Assembly (NCBI GenBank): GCA_028872875.1
Contig: JAGWOC010000023.1
Coordinates: 1-43,844 of the forward strand
DNA: 43,844 nt
Direction of reading: 5' to 3'
Origin: Chloroflexota bacterium
Lineage (GTDB): Bacteria; Chloroflexota; Dehalococcoidia; DSTF01; JACRBR01
The first letter of the stretch is position 1. The number at the start of each line of letters is the position of its first letter. The translations under genes were made by a program, and so were the position numbers. The notes under the pieces are model-generated. The model worked only from the letters and a program-made list of their open reading frames with translations. It searched no databases and was not told the origin of the DNA. Shown here in pieces: positions 13,363-41,536 of the stretch.

Positions 13363-13634
13363 GCCTGAACATCGCGCTGACGGTCGACGGCGACCTGGAG
13401 CACCCCGCCGCGCGAGACCTGGCGGAGCACGTCGTGCGCCTGGTGCGCGAGGCCGTCCAAGGCGCGGCGGCGCAGCAGTCGGCGCGCGTCGACATCGCCG
13501 GCCCGCACGAGCTGCGGTCGACGACAGAGCGGCGCGCGTTCAACGCGCCGGAGGAGTTCCGCGCGGACTCCGACGGCCCAAGGCGCGCCGTGGAGTTCAG
13601 CGCGTACATCCACCTGCCGAAGGAGGGCGCGTGA
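13359..13634 (+). CDS. small acidic/Ala-rich protein, unknown function
   Basis: ATG 13359 overlaps the holin stop by four nt. The 91-residue protein starts MSLNIALTVDGDLEHPAARDLAEHV, has a helical middle and ends in a strand AVEFSAYIHLPKEGA. There are no Cys or membrane segments. Translational coupling suggests it is made together with the holin. No family recognised. Confidence 0.6.
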   Translation: MSLNIALTVDGDLEHPAARDLAEHVVRLVREAVQGAAAQQSARVDIAGPHELRSTTERRAFNAPEEFRADSDGPRRAVEFSAYIHLPKEGA

Positions 13635-13693
13635 TGCCGAAGGCGAGCAAGAAGCCGAAGAAGAAGGGGAGCAAGCCCAAGGGCGGGAAGTAG
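13634..13693 (+). CDS. tiny Lys-rich peptide (copy 1)
   Basis: ATG 13634 overlaps the previous stop (TGATG). The 19-residue product is about half lysine: it begins MPKASKK and ends KPKGGK. Just after its stop lies a strong terminator. A second, altered copy of peptide plus terminator is found at 14238-14350. Likely to bind nucleic acid or membrane if made; function unknown. Confidence 0.5.
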   Translation: MPKASKKPKKKGSKPKGGK

Positions 13694-13705
13694 CGGGCAT
13701 GCGTG

Positions 13706-13740
13706 GGCCGTCGCTGCCTTCGGGCGGCGGCGGCCTTTTT
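13706..13740 (+). terminator. intrinsic terminator 1
   Basis: A 13-bp GC-rich stem (13706-13718 with 13723-13735, two G-T pairs) capped by TTCG and followed by five T. It ends the lysis transcript just before the tRNA-like island. Confidence 0.93.
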
Positions 13741-13829: not shown

Positions 13830-13851
13830 GTAGACTCCGGCCCTCGGGCCG
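13830..13851 (+). repeat. conserved leader hairpin, copy 1
   Basis: GTAGACTC followed by a 5-bp hairpin with arms CGGCC and GGCCG and loop CTCG. The same element occurs at 13996-14017 (same loop) and 14452-14473 (loop TAGC). In all three cases it directly precedes a tRNA 3' half. The paired arms are identical while the loop varies. Confidence 0.8.
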
Positions 13852-13929
13852 CCGTCAAAGAGGTGGAAGATGCGGGTTCAATCCCCGCCCGCGCTCCGGC
13901 GCGGTAGCTCAACAGGCAGAGCGCCACAA
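13852..13929 (+). ncRNA. circularly permuted tRNA-like element A
   Basis: Order is 3' half first. GTGG (13863-13866) is a possible anticodon-stem strand, followed by variable AAGAT. The T-arm is GCGGG/CCCGC with loop TTCAATC (13872-13888). Then come the acceptor 3' strand (13889-13894), loop TCCG (13895-13898), acceptor 5' strand (13899-13904), T8-A9 and a D-arm GCTC/GAGC (13907-13922) with loop AACAGGCA that keeps GG and the closing A. CCAC (13924-13927) pairs with GTGG. The six acceptor pairs are perfect, plus a possible G-T pair. No normal seven-base anticodon loop with U33 can be assembled. The next element starts two nt later. Confidence 0.72.
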
Positions 13930-13995
13930 GCGGAAGATGCCAGTTCGACTCCGGCCGCTGGCACGCCAGCGTAGCTCAAAGGCAGAGCGTCCGCC
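13930..13995 (+). ncRNA. circularly permuted tRNA-like element B
   Basis: 3' half: GCGGA (13930-13934), variable AGAT, T-arm GCCAG/CCGGC around TTCGACT (one A-C mismatch), acceptor strand CGCTGGC (13956-13962). Two nt, AC, separate it from the 5' half: GCCAGCG (13965-13971), T8-A9, D-arm GCTC/GAGC with loop AAAGGCA, G26, then TCCGC (13990-13994). The acceptor strands pair 7 of 7 and the anticodon strands TCCGC/GCGGA pair 5 of 5, but only in the permuted reading. Read in the normal order, element A's 5' half and B's 3' half do not pair. This is the best-formed copy. Confidence 0.78.
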
Positions 13996-14017
13996 GTAGA
14001 CTCCGGCCCTCGGGCCG
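13996..14017 (+). repeat. conserved leader hairpin, copy 2
   Basis: Identical over its full length to the copy at 13830-13851. It separates tRNA-like elements B and C, so it is not only a transcript 5' end; it may be a processing or branching signal. Confidence 0.8.
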
Positions 14018-14084
14018 TTGGCCAATAGTTGCGGGTTCGACTCCCGCCGGCGCCTGAGGGCGCGCGATGCCAAGCGGTTTGGCC
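14018..14084 (+). ncRNA. circularly permuted tRNA-like element C (degenerate)
   Basis: Perfect T-arm GCGGG/CCCGC with TTCGACT (14031-14047), acceptor strand CGGCGCC, loop TGAG (14055-14058), then GGCGCGCG, which gives seven pairs with one bulged G. Positions 8-9 are AT rather than TA. The D-arm GCC/GGC with loop AAGCGGTTT (14069-14083) looks like that of Gln-type tRNAs. The sequence runs straight into a 15-bp hairpin where the anticodon arm would be. It is less regular than B and D. Confidence 0.6.
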
Positions 14085-14119
14085 AAGAAGGGGCTCAGGC
14101 AACGCCTGGGCTTCTTCTT
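14085..14119 (+). ncRNA. 15-bp hairpin replacing the anticodon arm of element C
   Basis: Arms 14085-14099 and 14105-14119 pair over 15 positions (three G-T) around a five-base loop. It starts one nt after the D-arm of element C. The counterpart after element D is at 14541-14576. It may also end transcript 1, as the 3' arm is T-rich, although no T-run follows. Confidence 0.65.
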
Positions 14120-14237
14120 CGGCCGCCGCGCCCCCCGCCGTCCCGGCACAGTAGGCGCGTCCTGGGCAGTGCGCGCGCCAGCGCCGCCACGTCGTCTGGC
14201 CGCGTCGCCGCAGGCGCAGAGGGCGGGGTGAGGAAGC
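14120..14237 (+). other. spacer between array 1 and Lys-rich peptide 2
   Basis: About 118 nt of GC-rich sequence. A basic open frame (ATG 14067 to 14232) crosses it, but its start lies inside the element C D-arm and it lacks a ribosome binding site. I see no supported gene. Confidence 0.4.
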
Positions 14238-14363
14238 GTGCCCAAGAAGAAGAAGCCCGCCAAGAAGGGGAGCAAGCCCAAGGGCGGGGAAGTGACGGGT
14301 TGCAGGTCGGTGCGCTGCGGCCGTCGGCCTTCGGGCTGGCGGCCGTTTTTGCGTCTGTGCTAG
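14238..14363 (+). pseudogene. Lys-rich peptide copy 2, stop lost by one extra G
   Basis: GTG 14238 behind GAGGAAG. It starts MPKKKKPAKKG and then repeats the KPKGG segment of copy 1. Twenty-seven nt are identical to copy 1. Copy 2 then has one extra G, so the frame misses the stop used in copy 1 and runs on for 24 codons through terminator 2 to TAG 14361-14363. This is either a decayed copy or a longer peptide. Confidence 0.5.
14318..14350 (+). terminator. intrinsic terminator 2
   Basis: A 12-bp stem (14318-14329 with 14334-14345) capped by TTCG and followed by five T. It closely resembles terminator 1 and ends in the same TTTTTGCGT word, as part of a duplicated block. Confidence 0.92.
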
Positions 14364-14366
14364 AGT
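14358..14366 (+). promoter_or_regulatory. putative promoter P2 of the second tRNA-like unit
   Basis: Extended -10 TGC-TAGAGT in the same position relative to terminator 2 as TGC-TATACT is to terminator 1. No good -35 is visible and the spacing from the terminator is shorter, so this promoter may be weak or decayed. Confidence 0.4.
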
Positions 14367-14451
14367 GTCGCCAGAGGGCCACCAGCCCTCACTCAGACGG
14401 GCGGCTGGCCGTCAGCGGGTCCTCGTCCAAGTGCCGTTGTGAGCCGCCCGC

Positions 14452-14473
14452 GTAGACTCCGGCCTAGCGGCCG
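14452..14473 (+). repeat. conserved leader hairpin, copy 3
   Basis: Same GTAGACTC plus CGGCC/GGCCG hairpin as the copies at 13830 and 13996, with loop TAGC. It is preceded by a 9-bp long-range stem (14398-14406 with 14442-14450). Confidence 0.8.
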
Positions 14474-14540
14474 TTGTCCAAGAGGTCGCGGGTTCGAATC
14501 CCGCCGTGCCCCTCGGGGCGCGTAGCTCAGCGGTAGAGCA
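14474..14540 (+). ncRNA. circularly permuted tRNA-like element D
   Basis: Variable AGGTC (14483-14487), perfect T-arm GCGGG/CCCGC with loop TTCGAAT (14488-14504), acceptor strand CGTGCCC (14505-14511), loop CTCG (14512-14515), acceptor strand GGGCGCG (14516-14522), T8-A9, and D-arm GCTC/GAGC with loop AGCGGTA (14525-14539). The acceptor strands pair 7 of 7 with one G-T. The elbow bases U8, A14, GG in the D-loop and TTC in the T-loop are all present. The 3' half has no partner for an anticodon stem. Instead GGCAG at 14541 pairs with CTGCC at 14572 in a capped hairpin. Confidence 0.78.
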
Positions 14541-14576
14541 GGCAGATGCCTCGGCCTTCGGGTCGGGGCGTCTGCC
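14541..14576 (+). ncRNA. 16-bp UUCG-capped hairpin replacing the anticodon arm of element D
   Basis: Arms 14541-14556 and 14561-14576 pair over 16 positions (three G-T) around a TTCG tetraloop. It starts right after base 26 of element D, exactly where the anticodon stem should begin. So element D has an anticodon-stem analogue but no anticodon loop. Confidence 0.8.
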
Positions 14577-14587
14577 GTTAACGCCAC

Positions 14588-14619
14588 GACGCCCGCCGGC
14601 CTTGCGGCTGGCGGGCGTC
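14588..14619 (+). terminator. terminator-like hairpin 3
   Basis: A 14-bp stem (14588-14601 with 14606-14619) with loop TTGC followed by TTCGCGTCT. The T-tract is imperfect. It sits at the end of the second tRNA-like transcript and in front of the convergent repressor gene. Confidence 0.7.
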
Positions 14620-14684
14620 TTCGCGTCTATCCCGTTGGCGCGCTGGGTGGGTCGGCCGGCCGGATTGGCACGACCTTGGGCCCG

Positions 14685-24516: not shown

Positions 24517-24767
24517 GTACGGCGGAGCCGCTGCCGGATCGCCCCTCCTACCACACGCCTGCGTGGGTGGCCGCCGACCTCGGCGTGTCGCTGTCCACCG
24601 TGTACGAGGCGCTGCGTGCCGGCGAGCTGCCGCGCATCCGCGTCCGCGGGCAGTGGCGCATCCCCTGCGACCGCTACGAGCGGTGGCGCAACGGCGATGA
24701 GGACCTGTCGCGGCAGACCGCCCAGGTGATCCCGCTGCGGCGCAGGACGGTGGGAGCCCGTGCCTAG
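24513..24767 (+). CDS. xis: excisionase-like MerR-type HTH protein
   Basis: GTG 24513 in a GTGA overlap. 84 residues. HTPAWVAADLGVSLSTVYEALRAGELPRIRVRGQWRIPCDRYERW is the helix-turn-helix and wing typical of excisionase-family (HTH_17) proteins. It overlaps the integrase gene start, and such a pairing usually means Xis, which bends att DNA and drives excision. Confidence 0.8.
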   Translation: MSTAEPLPDRPSYHTPAWVAADLGVSLSTVYEALRAGELPRIRVRGQWRIPCDRYERWRNGDEDLSRQTAQVIPLRRRTVGARA

Positions 24768-25917
24768 CCTGCGCAAGCGAGGCGACAAGTGGTACGTGCG
24801 CCTGACGGTGGGGCGCGACGCCAAGGGGCGCCGCAAGCAGGTCGAGGTCGCCACGGGCAAGACGACGCGCCACGAGGCCGAGGCCGAGGCCGCCGTGATC
24901 GTCGCGCGGGCGCAGCAGGGCACGATGCCGTCGACTGACCGCACGACGGTCTCCGAATGGCTGGAGCGGTGGCTCGCCGACGTGGTGCGGCCGTCGCTCG
25001 CCCCGGCGACCGTGCGCTCGTACGAAGGCGCGGTCAAGAACCACCTCTCGCCGATGCTGGGCGGCATCCCGCTGCGCGACCTGCACCCCTCGGACTTGGC
25101 GCGCCTGTACGCGAGCCGCGCGAGGACGCTGGCGCCGAAGCACGTCCTATACCTGCACCGCCTCATGCACCGCTCGCTTGGCGTCGCTGTGCGGTGGGGC
25201 TTGGTGCCGCGCAACGTAGCCGATGCGGTGGACGCGCCGAGGGCGCGCGCCGCAGAGCGGCCGACGCTCACGGCCGATGAAGCCGCGGCGCTGCTGGACG
25301 CGGCACGGGCGGACAGGCTCTACGCGCTCTACTGGCTGGCGCTGGAGACGGGGCTGCGGGAGGGCGAGTTGGTCGGTCGGCGGTGGGCAGACTTCGACGA
25401 GAAGGGCCGCACGCTGGCCGTGGGGAGCCAACTCCAGCGCGTCTATGGCGAGGGCATCGTCGAGCGCCCCACCAAGGCGCGGCGCCCGCGGTCGCGCGTG
25501 CCGCTGTCGGCGGCTGCCGTGCGCGTCCTGAAGGCGCACCGAGGCCGCCAGGATGACGAGCGCGCCCTCGCCGGGTCGGCATGGGACGGGAGCGGCTGGA
25601 TCTTCTGCTTCGAGGACGGCCGGCCGATCGAGCCCGGGTACGTCGGCAAGCACTTCAAGCGGCTGCGCAAGCGCCTGGAGTTGCCGGAGGGCATGCGGTT
25701 CCACGACCTGCGCCACACCTCCGCGACGCTGGGCGTCGCCCATGGCGAGCCGCTGGAGAGCGTGGCGAGCCGCCTCGGTCACGCCAGCCGCGCGACCACG
25801 CTGACGATGTACGGGCACGCCACGCCGCCGATGGAGCAGGCCGCGGCAGAGAAGCGCGGCGGCTTGCTGGAGCGGCCCAACCGAACGGACGAGCCGAACA
25901 AGGAGGGGACGGCGTGA
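24760..25917 (+). CDS. int: tyrosine integrase
   Basis: GTG 24760, 385 residues. The N-terminal part (residues 1-50, three strands with Arg/Lys) is an arm-type DNA-binding domain; residues about 60-155 form the core-binding SAM-like domain. Catalytic residues are Arg200 (TGLREGEL), Lys239, His315-x-x-Arg318 (FHDLRHTSAT), His341 (RLGHAS) and Tyr351 (MYGHA). It integrates phage DNA at attP, which follows directly downstream. The product ends at 25917 just before the arm repeats. Confidence 0.95.
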   Translation: MPSLRKRGDKWYVRLTVGRDAKGRRKQVEVATGKTTRHEAEAEAAVIVARAQQGTMPSTDRTTVSEWLERWLADVVRPSLAPATVRSYEGAVKNHLSPMLGGIPLRDLHPSDLARLYASRARTLAPKHVLYLHRLMHRSLGVAVRWGLVPRNVADAVDAPRARAAERPTLTADEAAALLDAARADRLYALYWLALETGLREGELVGRRWADFDEKGRTLAVGSQLQRVYGEGIVERPTKARRPRSRVPLSAAAVRVLKAHRGRQDDERALAGSAWDGSGWIFCFEDGRPIEPGYVGKHFKRLRKRLELPEGMRFHDLRHTSATLGVAHGEPLESVASRLGHASRATTLTMYGHATPPMEQAAAEKRGGLLERPNRTDEPNKEGTA

Positions 25918-25945: not shown

Positions 25946-25970
25946 TTCGGGCGGCTTGTGCTCTGGGAGC

Positions 25971-26014
25971 GGTGCGCCCGAAGGGATTCGAACCCCTGCC
26001 CCGCTGATTAGAAG
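25971..26014 (-). other. attP: attP core: 3' part of tRNA-Arg(TCT)
   Basis: On the reverse strand this reads as anticodon loop CTTCTAA, anticodon stem TCAGC, variable GGGGC, T-arm AGGGG-TTCGAAT-CCCTT, acceptor strand CGGGCGC, A73 and CC. It is the 3' part of a normal tRNA-Arg with anticodon TCT but there is no 5' half beside it. The site directly follows the integrase gene, so it is the crossover core; insertion would rebuild the host tRNA. Phage genes on both sides show this is attP in phage DNA. The remaining 300 nt of the intergenic region have no gene. Confidence 0.88.
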
Positions 26015-26130
26015 TTTTGAGACGGGCCTGTCCCCTATTGACGCATATTCGCAGGACCGCGATTTGTCGCGCTCCTCCGCTGGAGTCAGCACAACCGTTC
26101 GCGCCGAGAATGGGCCTTCCGCGGCTCCTG

Positions 26131-33802: not shown

Positions 33803-34684
33803 TCAAAGCCGCTCCGCCACCAGATCCGCCGATGTCCTGACGAGGCCCTTGGCGAGCCTGATGTACCGCTGCGTGGTCCTGACGCTGGCGTGGCCGAGGT
33901 CGCTCTGCACCTGCATGAGGTCGGCACCCGCGACGAACGCCTGCGTGGCGAGGTACGAGCGCAGCCAGTGCGCGCTGACGTGCCGCACGCCGGCCGCCAC
34001 GGCGATGCGCGCGAGCATGCGGTCGGCCGCCTGCTGGCTGCAGCGGCCGCCGTGCCGCGCCGGCCAGAGCGGGCCCGCATCCGTGCGCCACGCCTCCAGC
34101 GCCTGGAGCACGCGCGGCAGCAGCTTCACGCTCCGCGCCTTGCCGCCTTTGCCCACCACGCGCAACCCCGTGTTGCCCGTTGGGTCCCGGTAGACGTGCG
34201 CCCAGGTCGCGTCCAGCGCCTCGCTGATCCGCAGCCCCGTCGTCGCCAGCAGCAGCAGCAGCGCGCGGCCCTTGGGCGCGGCAGCCGCCAGCATGGCGCG
34301 CAGCTCCTCGCGCGAGAGCATGCGCGGCGCGCCGTCCGCCGCCACGCGCGGCGCCAGCACGACGCGGAACGGGCTCTTGGCGACCGCGCCAAGGTCCTCG
34401 GCGAACGAGAACAGCGAGCGCAGCGCCGCCAGGTGCTTGGCCTGCGTCGCAGACGCCATGCCGCACTCGCCGAGCGCCTGCGCGTACCACAGCGCCTCCG
34501 TCTGCGTCGCGGTCAGCACGTCGCGGCCGAGGTGCGCCGCGAACCGCTGCACGGCCCCGGTGTACGCGCGCACTGTGCCATCGCTGTGGCTGCGGGCGTA
34601 GGCGCGGGCGAGCCACAGGCGGACGACGGCATCGGAGTCGGGAGCGGCGGGAGGGGACGGGAGCGGGGCGAGGGCGAGGGACAT
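33803..34684 (-). CDS. second tyrosine recombinase (XerC/D-like)
   Basis: Reverse strand, ATG 34684 behind GAGGAGG. 293 residues. Residues 15-105 form a SAM-like core-binding domain. Catalytic residues: Arg152 (TGLRISEAL), Lys182 (GKGGKAR), His239-x-x-Arg242 (HWLR), His265 (DLGHAS) and Tyr274 (RYI). No N-terminal arm domain as in the first integrase. It could resolve multimers, flip an invertible segment or act on a separate site. It is the last gene of a reverse operon with small genes upstream. Confidence 0.9.
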   Translation of the reverse strand: MSLALAPLPSPPAAPDSDAVVRLWLARAYARSHSDGTVRAYTGAVQRFAAHLGRDVLTATQTEALWYAQALGECGMASATQAKHLAALRSLFSFAEDLGAVAKSPFRVVLAPRVAADGAPRMLSREELRAMLAAAAPKGRALLLLLATTGLRISEALDATWAHVYRDPTGNTGLRVVGKGGKARSVKLLPRVLQALEAWRTDAGPLWPARHGGRCSQQAADRMLARIAVAAGVRHVSAHWLRSYLATQAFVAGADLMQVQSDLGHASVRTTQRYIRLAKGLVRTSADLVAERL

Positions 34685-41130: not shown

Positions 41131-41324
41131 ACCTCGACGCCGAGATCGCCCTGCACCGCAACCGCATCGTGGAGCTCAAGGCCAACATCCTGGACGCCCG
41201 GGAAGAGCTGGAGCGCGAGCAGATGGTCCTGCTGGCGCTGGAGGCCGTGGCGCAGCAGCCCGCGCCGGAGGCGGCGCCGCAGCCGCAGGTCCGCGCGCGC
41301 CGCGCCGGCGCCCAGGAGGGATAG
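41127..41324 (+). CDS. small coiled-coil protein
   Basis: GTG 41127 in a GTGA overlap. 65 residues. IALHRNRIVELKANILDAREELEREQMVLLALEAV is one heptad helix; then a Pro/Gln/Arg tail. Unknown function; perhaps a scaffold-like or assembly factor. Confidence 0.5.
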   Translation: MNLDAEIALHRNRIVELKANILDAREELEREQMVLLALEAVAQQPAPEAAPQPQVRARRAGAQEG

Positions 41325-41326
41325 CG

Positions 41327-41536
41327 GTGGACGGGCTGCGCGACCTGCGCTGCGGCTGCGGCCGCCTGCTGGCGCGGATCTCCGGCGGCGGCCGCGGCAT
41401 CGTCCAGATACGGTGCAAGGGTTGCCACGCGCTCGTCCAGGCGACGGGCGACCGCGTCGAGATCGTCGAGCAGGGCGAGGCGCGCTATGCCGGCGGCCAG
41501 CGCCAGCCGGTCGGGACCGCGACGCTGGCGGAGTGA
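41327..41536 (+). CDS. Com-like zinc finger protein
   Basis: GTG 41327, two nt after the upstream stop. 69 residues. LRCGCGRLLARI and IVQIRCKGCHALVQ give CxC and CxxC in the spacing of Mu Com-type zinc fingers. Com controls translation of the mom modification gene in Mu. Here it lies before a terminator and next to head/packaging genes. The role is unproven, though this phage has two methyltransferases elsewhere. Confidence 0.68.
   Translation: MDGLRDLRCGCGRLLARISGGGRGIVQIRCKGCHALVQATGDRVEIVEQGEARYAGGQRQPVGTATLAE

Follow-up and report, generated by a model that had tools for sequence, protein, structure and literature searches.

Circularly permuted, end-sealed tRNA modules in a temperate phage: very probable YrlA-type mimics with an apparently new tandem form

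An RNA strand that would fold into the body of a tRNA with its halves in reverse order, and with its acceptor end closed by a loop, raises the question of what it is related to and what it could do for a phage. Four such elements had been proposed, from the sequence alone, in a contig of a Chloroflexota bacterium (JAGWOC010000023.1; GCA_028872875.1), of which a stretch of 43,844 nt was analysed; this whole stretch is called the window. The array of elements belongs to a temperate phage. It is surrounded by genes for a tail spike, a holin, a repressor-type HTH protein, an ERF recombinase, SSB, integrases, terminase and portal protein, and the contig stops within the portal gene, leaving the phage genome incomplete. 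The host assignment of the contig comes from binning and is uncertain, because a tRNA-Arg attP-like core matches the rest of the genome bin only weakly. This likely attP core is the 3′ part of a tRNA at 25950–26025 on the minus strand, adjoining an integrase gene (24760–25917); with its loop CTTCTAA and T-arm it reads as tRNA-Arg TCT. The same phage contig has a second gene of the phage integrase family at 33803–34684.

Modules A, B and D are circularly permuted tRNA modules with sealed ends, and C is a degenerate fourth (Table 1). In the first three, the strand runs from a T-arm through the 3′ acceptor strand, a short loop and the 5′ acceptor strand to U8-A9 and the D-arm, as in A, where a core at 13872–13922 comprises the T-arm (13872–13888), the acceptor hairpin (13889–13904), U8A9 and the D-arm (13907–13922). 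A rule-based scan of both strands of the 43.8 kb matched exactly A, B and D and gave no match when the window was dinucleotide-shuffled 60 times. The acceptors of these three differ in sequence and pair at 7/7 positions with G-U allowed, in keeping with the original prediction of at least six pairs in every copy; C falls short of it, with 5/7 pairs when ungapped and seven with a bulged G. The tRNA elbow is retained in each module (T-loop, D-loop and usually U8), and the claim that all of its elements persist holds for A, B and D but not for C, where U8 is absent and the D-arm altered (GCCA/TGGC, loop AGCGGTT). Stems of anticodon type had been read in A and B in the permuted order, and they are indeed there, with 4 and 5 bp; that of B encloses the T-arm, a 7-bp acceptor hairpin and the D-arm, and the stems of A and B stand only 2 nt (AA) apart. 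The hairpins described at the place of the anticodon arm in C and D were found again, predicted at 20 and 16 bp. ARAGORN reports neither a tRNA nor a tmRNA in the window. Because T-arm, closed acceptor and D-arm form one continuous strand, the modules cannot carry an amino acid or decode, and RNAs with no free CCA end and no anticodon would take no part in translation.

Each of three units is opened by a 22-nt hairpin element (GTAGACTCCGGCC..GGCCG), ahead of A, C and D, and intrinsic terminators stand ahead of two RNA blocks. Immediately before each terminator and block lies a copy of a Lys-rich micro-ORF; in the second copy (14238–14295) an additional G moves the frame beyond the stop. Sites resembling a -10 element, TGCTATACT (extended) after the first terminator and TGCTAGAGT after the second, were recognised by eye only, and a promoter scan reports no promoter.

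Table 1. Features of the module array (positions in the window; R1 and R3 are models described in the text)
Feature	Position	Strand	Basis
Lys-rich 19-aa ORF (MPKASKKPKKKGSKPKGGK), upstream of unit 1	13634..13693	+	sequence
Intrinsic terminator ahead of unit 1	13705..13736	+	terminator prediction
22-nt unit-start element GTAGACTCCGGCCCTCGGGCCG (hairpin), copy 1, before A	13830..13851	+	direct repeat family D1
Tandem double module A-B	13862..13993	+	tandem model R3 (window excluded): 98.8 bits, E=2.8e-23
Module A, anticodon-type stem GTGG/CCAC	13863..13927	+	YrlA 2.6e-6; scan; R1 6.3e-11; stem analysis
Module B, anticodon-type stem GCGGA/TCCGC, core 13939-13988	13930..13994	+	YrlA 1.3e-3; scan; R1 1.7e-9; stem analysis
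Unit-start element copy 2, before C	13996..14017	+	direct repeat family D1
Module C, degenerate	14026..14083	+	R1 E=1.7e-6
20-bp hairpin after C	14081..14124	+	predicted fold
Intrinsic terminator ahead of D unit	14317..14346	+	terminator prediction
Unit-start element copy 3 (GTAGACTCCGGCCTAGCGGCCG), before D	14452..14473	+	direct repeat family D1
Module D core: T-arm, 7-bp acceptor hairpin (CTCG loop), U8A9, D-arm	14488..14539	+	YrlA 3e-7; R1 70.7 bits, 9.7e-15
16-bp hairpin, TTCG loop, directly 3′ of the D-arm of D	14541..14576	+	predicted fold
Terminal hairpin closing D unit	14581..14626	+	inverted repeat I1; fold

Y RNAs are known as partners of Ro60. The modules are very probably tRNA mimics of the type of YrlA, a bacterial Y RNA (RF02553; PMC8394870; PMC7790460) that is the nearest RNA known and was not named in the original prediction. 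At the Rfam gathering threshold (69 bits) nothing is found in the array, and Rfam tmRNA has no match there either; at a relaxed threshold YrlA matches D, A and B (E values in Table 1; best 40.5 bits), spanning only their tRNA-like cores. Ro60-linked phage RNAs likewise stay under the RF02553 gathering score, at 53.5 bits or less in all those tested. Elements of this array are therefore missed both by ARAGORN and by the default threshold of Rfam.

Relatives were sought in IMG/VR with a permuted T-to-D DNA signature, which matched at least 120 contigs. Many of the first 120 matches were tandem tRNA genes whose spacer contains CCA, which were removed by acceptor pairing and inspection, and 45 phage contigs were then chosen on the permuted DNA pattern plus acceptor pairing. 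Among the matches listed, TROVE (Ro60) is encoded in 28 of the 45 chosen contigs, and the RNA lies within 2 kb of the TROVE gene in 24 of 27 tabulated cases. Permuted modules of YrlA type are thus common in phages, mostly adjoining a Ro60 gene. Across 36 phage modules, 96% of acceptor pairs are kept, with compensatory changes at 6/7 positions, and when all three helices are counted, 98% of cells pair, compared with 32–47% when partners are slid. The covariation first argued from four copies, which alone are insufficient, is therefore carried by these relatives, and a selected fold of the permuted, acceptor-sealed modules is supported. R1, a covariance model of 36 modules from TROVE-encoding phages that contains no window sequence, recognises all four modules of the window, including degenerate C (Table 1). 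An acceptor loop of the form NNNG, once taken as a rule, does not survive the comparison, as the loops of relatives have 2–12 nt of varied sequence.

The core module is only one part of a full phage Y RNA, in which it is preceded by a basal stem, an anticodon arm with 7 nt in its loop, and the variable stretch GGUC. In several Ro60-linked phage Y RNAs (L053, L027, L012, L050, L034, L220, L024 and others), the anticodon arms are full and their 7-nt loops resemble those of real tRNAs (CUGUUAA, CUUGUAA, CUGCUAA, CUGCCAA). With R2, a model extended by the Ro60 stem and anticodon arm, the scores of the window fall from 70.7 to 54.8 bits for D and from 54.0 to 39.2 bits for A, whereas most Ro60-linked RNAs outside its training rise (L220 from 66.5 to 109.9, L257 from 59.8 to 106.3 and L055 from 65.5 to 75.1 bits). 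The contrast is strong but not absolute, since the Ro60-linked L219 and L264 also score lower (68.4 to 50.5 and 58.6 to 55.1 bits). The window RNAs thus lack the long basal stem that is the Ro60-binding site. No TROVE turned up in the window, whose phage contig is incomplete, in its genome bin or in 17 further genomes from the order, and a search for a divergent Ro60 in the window, with Pfam at E up to 1 for 20 proteins and at 0.001 for others, gave none. Beside a module in another contig, L011 (2066–3532, minus strand), lies a protein of 488 aa whose match to von Willebrand A is weak and which has no TROVE match; it is possibly a divergent Ro60, and for this reason a TROVE-negative contig is not always free of Ro60.

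The pair A-B has counterparts elsewhere. Phage contigs were searched with a DNA pattern for two modules in succession, overlaps with ordinary tRNAs (ARAGORN) were removed, and some first modules were recognised through R1 matches and by reading. Tandem modules like A-B occur in at least about eleven lineages (L045/L117, L109, L250, L253/L312, L266/L330, L273, L315, L325, L334, L335 and L261). Closing stems of 4–6 bp and differing sequence are present in 25/25 modules of this class; with partners swapped the mean is 2.4 bp, against 4.5 observed, and none of 2000 swaps reaches the observed mean. The tandem alignment shows covariation. A-B has the same form, two modules with closing stems of 4–6 bp a few nucleotides apart, while C and D fall outside the class. 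No TROVE match was found in any tandem-class contig, several of them being 42–185 kb long and most incomplete, and the contrast of 0/12 tandem cases (with phage BAjuniper) against 28/42 (Fisher P = 3e-5) is between contigs that are independent only in part.

BAjuniper, a cultured Microbacterium phage with a complete genome of 41,985 bp, carries its tandem module where nothing is annotated, between tRNA-Pro (ending at 41283) and tRNA-Asn (starting at 41429). R1 and YrlA each detect both modules, and the complete genome has no TROVE. In BAjuniper, L109, L250 and L253, the tandem module lies 0–7 nt from tRNA genes on both sides, and because these genes abut it, tRNA processing could release it. 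R3, a tandem model built without the window, ranks A-B of the window (Table 1) above everything else in 151 genomes of the phylum, the best of the other 150 reaching 70.7 bits; ordinary adjacent tRNA genes score up to about 77 bits, so only clearly higher scores count. The module is of a known kind, and its tandem, apparently Ro60-free form is a variant that recurs in phages and seems new; no description of such forms was found, which is weak evidence, as the literature searched did not include the main Y RNA papers. By reading, a nested arrangement was also seen, with a permuted module seemingly placed within the anticodon loop of a second, outer tRNA-like element with its own anticodon-type stem (L274, 5190–5350, plus strand; L299, 5474–5690, minus strand).

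Closer kin of the whole array did not come to light. No related phage was reached by searching with the peptidase-like protein encoded next to it, BLAST of the array returned only short module matches in three phages, and array DNA compared with eight genomes of the family had no homologous array. The unit-start pattern GTAGACTCC..GGCCG matched 5 viral and 85 cellular contigs, but a module scan found none in those scanned, and the matches look like chance.

Several other readings of the locus can be weighed against these results. The modules could be phage Y RNAs of the ordinary sort, binding a Ro60 that is supplied by the host or encoded in the missing part of the phage, as the core is of the same kind as in Ro60-linked phage RNAs, it is usual for phages to carry several Y RNA modules near Ro60, the contig is incomplete, and the GTAGACTCC-hairpin preceding each of A, C and D looks, by eye, like the AUACUUCC-anticodon arm seen in phage Y RNAs. 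This is unlikely given that TROVE is absent from bin and order while other phages mostly have it within 2 kb, that the basal stem is missing (R2 below R1), and that only 4–5 bp close A and B. The RNAs might instead act in cis, as processing signals or transcription-insulating punctuation of phage transcripts; such a role is quite unlikely, because a sealed acceptor offers no normal end to RNase P or Z, and it leaves unexplained why two independently closed modules are kept across phages inside and outside tRNA arrays. What speaks for it is that every block has a terminator and a copy of the Lys-rich ORF ahead of it, and that tandem modules within arrays lie 0–7 nt from tRNAs.

In the permuted tRNA genes known from algae and an archaeon, the 3′ half precedes the 5′ half (cf. 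PMC10085705). Working tRNAs of that sort, made by joining the transcript within the anticodon loop and cutting open its acceptor end, would fit the order of the halves and the anticodon-type stems, and kinship with permuted tRNA genes or tmRNA had been implied for this array. It does not hold up: AA alone separates the stems of A and B, so an anticodon loop cannot be restored, the acceptor loops of 2–4 nt are too short for discriminator, CCA and cleavage sites, long hairpins occupy the place in question in C and D, and ARAGORN finds no such gene, which makes this origin very improbable. A permuted tmRNA was likewise rejected, with no ARAGORN match in the window and no Rfam tmRNA match in the array. 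Equally improbable is a broken tRNA gene array whose remnants pair by chance. The elements do lie close together, C is degenerate, and tandem modules of other phages lie within tRNA arrays; nevertheless, compensatory change in acceptor and closing stems across many phages already makes relics unlikely, and the shuffled windows (0 matches in 60) and model matches down to 9.7e-15 and 2.8e-23 argue further against them.

The preferred reading, held with moderate confidence, is that the window locus provides Ro60-free small RNAs built of YrlA-type modules, which present sealed tRNA bodies to a tRNA-handling protein. The phage locus would be transcribed into small noncoding RNAs in which A is coupled with B as a tandem double module and C and D are single modules lengthened by long hairpins. 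Since the Ro60-binding stem is absent and no Ro60 gene was found, the RNAs most likely act without Ro60. Their sealed tRNA bodies would occupy or tether a tRNA-handling protein, for which PNPase, tRNA-modifying enzymes and a tRNA-attacking defence nuclease, with the RNAs as decoys, are candidates. Where Ro60 is present, PNPase is bound by the tRNA-like part of the Y RNA, which TruB and DusA modify (PMC8394870), and it has been proposed that Y RNA competes against an anticodon nuclease (PMC7790460). For the double module specifically, a role as tether or decoy is suggested tentatively. A broader proposal, for and against which the balance is about even, holds that many phage lineages carry tandem sealed tRNA bodies, often cut from tRNA arrays, which act outside the Ro60 system and in trans on a tRNA-handling protein of the host or of a defence. 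If so, a widespread phage form with neither Ro60 stem nor Ro60 gene would indicate that tRNA mimicry is useful alone, plausibly in phage conflict with defences that attack or sense tRNAs. BAjuniper, whose host is Microbacterium foliorum NRRL B-24224, carries the same design and makes the role directly testable.

Among known systems, algal and archaeal permuted tRNA genes share the order of halves with the window modules, which differ in having no anticodon loop and no intervening end-forming sequence. YrlA shares the permuted T-arm, closed acceptor, D-arm and tRNA elbow, and in phage Y RNAs these parts are generally accompanied by a basal stem and by an anticodon arm whose loop has 7 nt; the window RNAs lack the basal stem, no Ro60 gene was found with them, and their modules stand in tandem (A-B) or carry added hairpins (C and D). 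Gordonia phage Cashline, Microbacterium phage A3Wally and Xanthomonas phage 10KY502B each carry the same module two or three times and, unlike the window, have a Ro60 gene nearby. In A3Wally and Cashline, genes near the modules are annotated as ‘Ro-like RNA binding protein’, and in 10KY502B a 439-aa ‘hypothetical protein’ adjoining three modules is TROVE (OQ622092 20624–22113; L220 3421–4910). An annotated tRNA-Thr of 10KY502B overlaps a Y RNA module. A Y RNA beside a Ro-like gene has also been suggested for Listeria phage CKA15 (PMC12282133). The nearest counterparts of A-B are BAjuniper and the tandem lineages listed above, with which it shares two modules and closing stems of 4–6 bp, and in which, as in the window, no TROVE was found; several of these relatives lie between tRNA genes, whereas A-B of the window stands alone behind a terminator, with C and D in addition.
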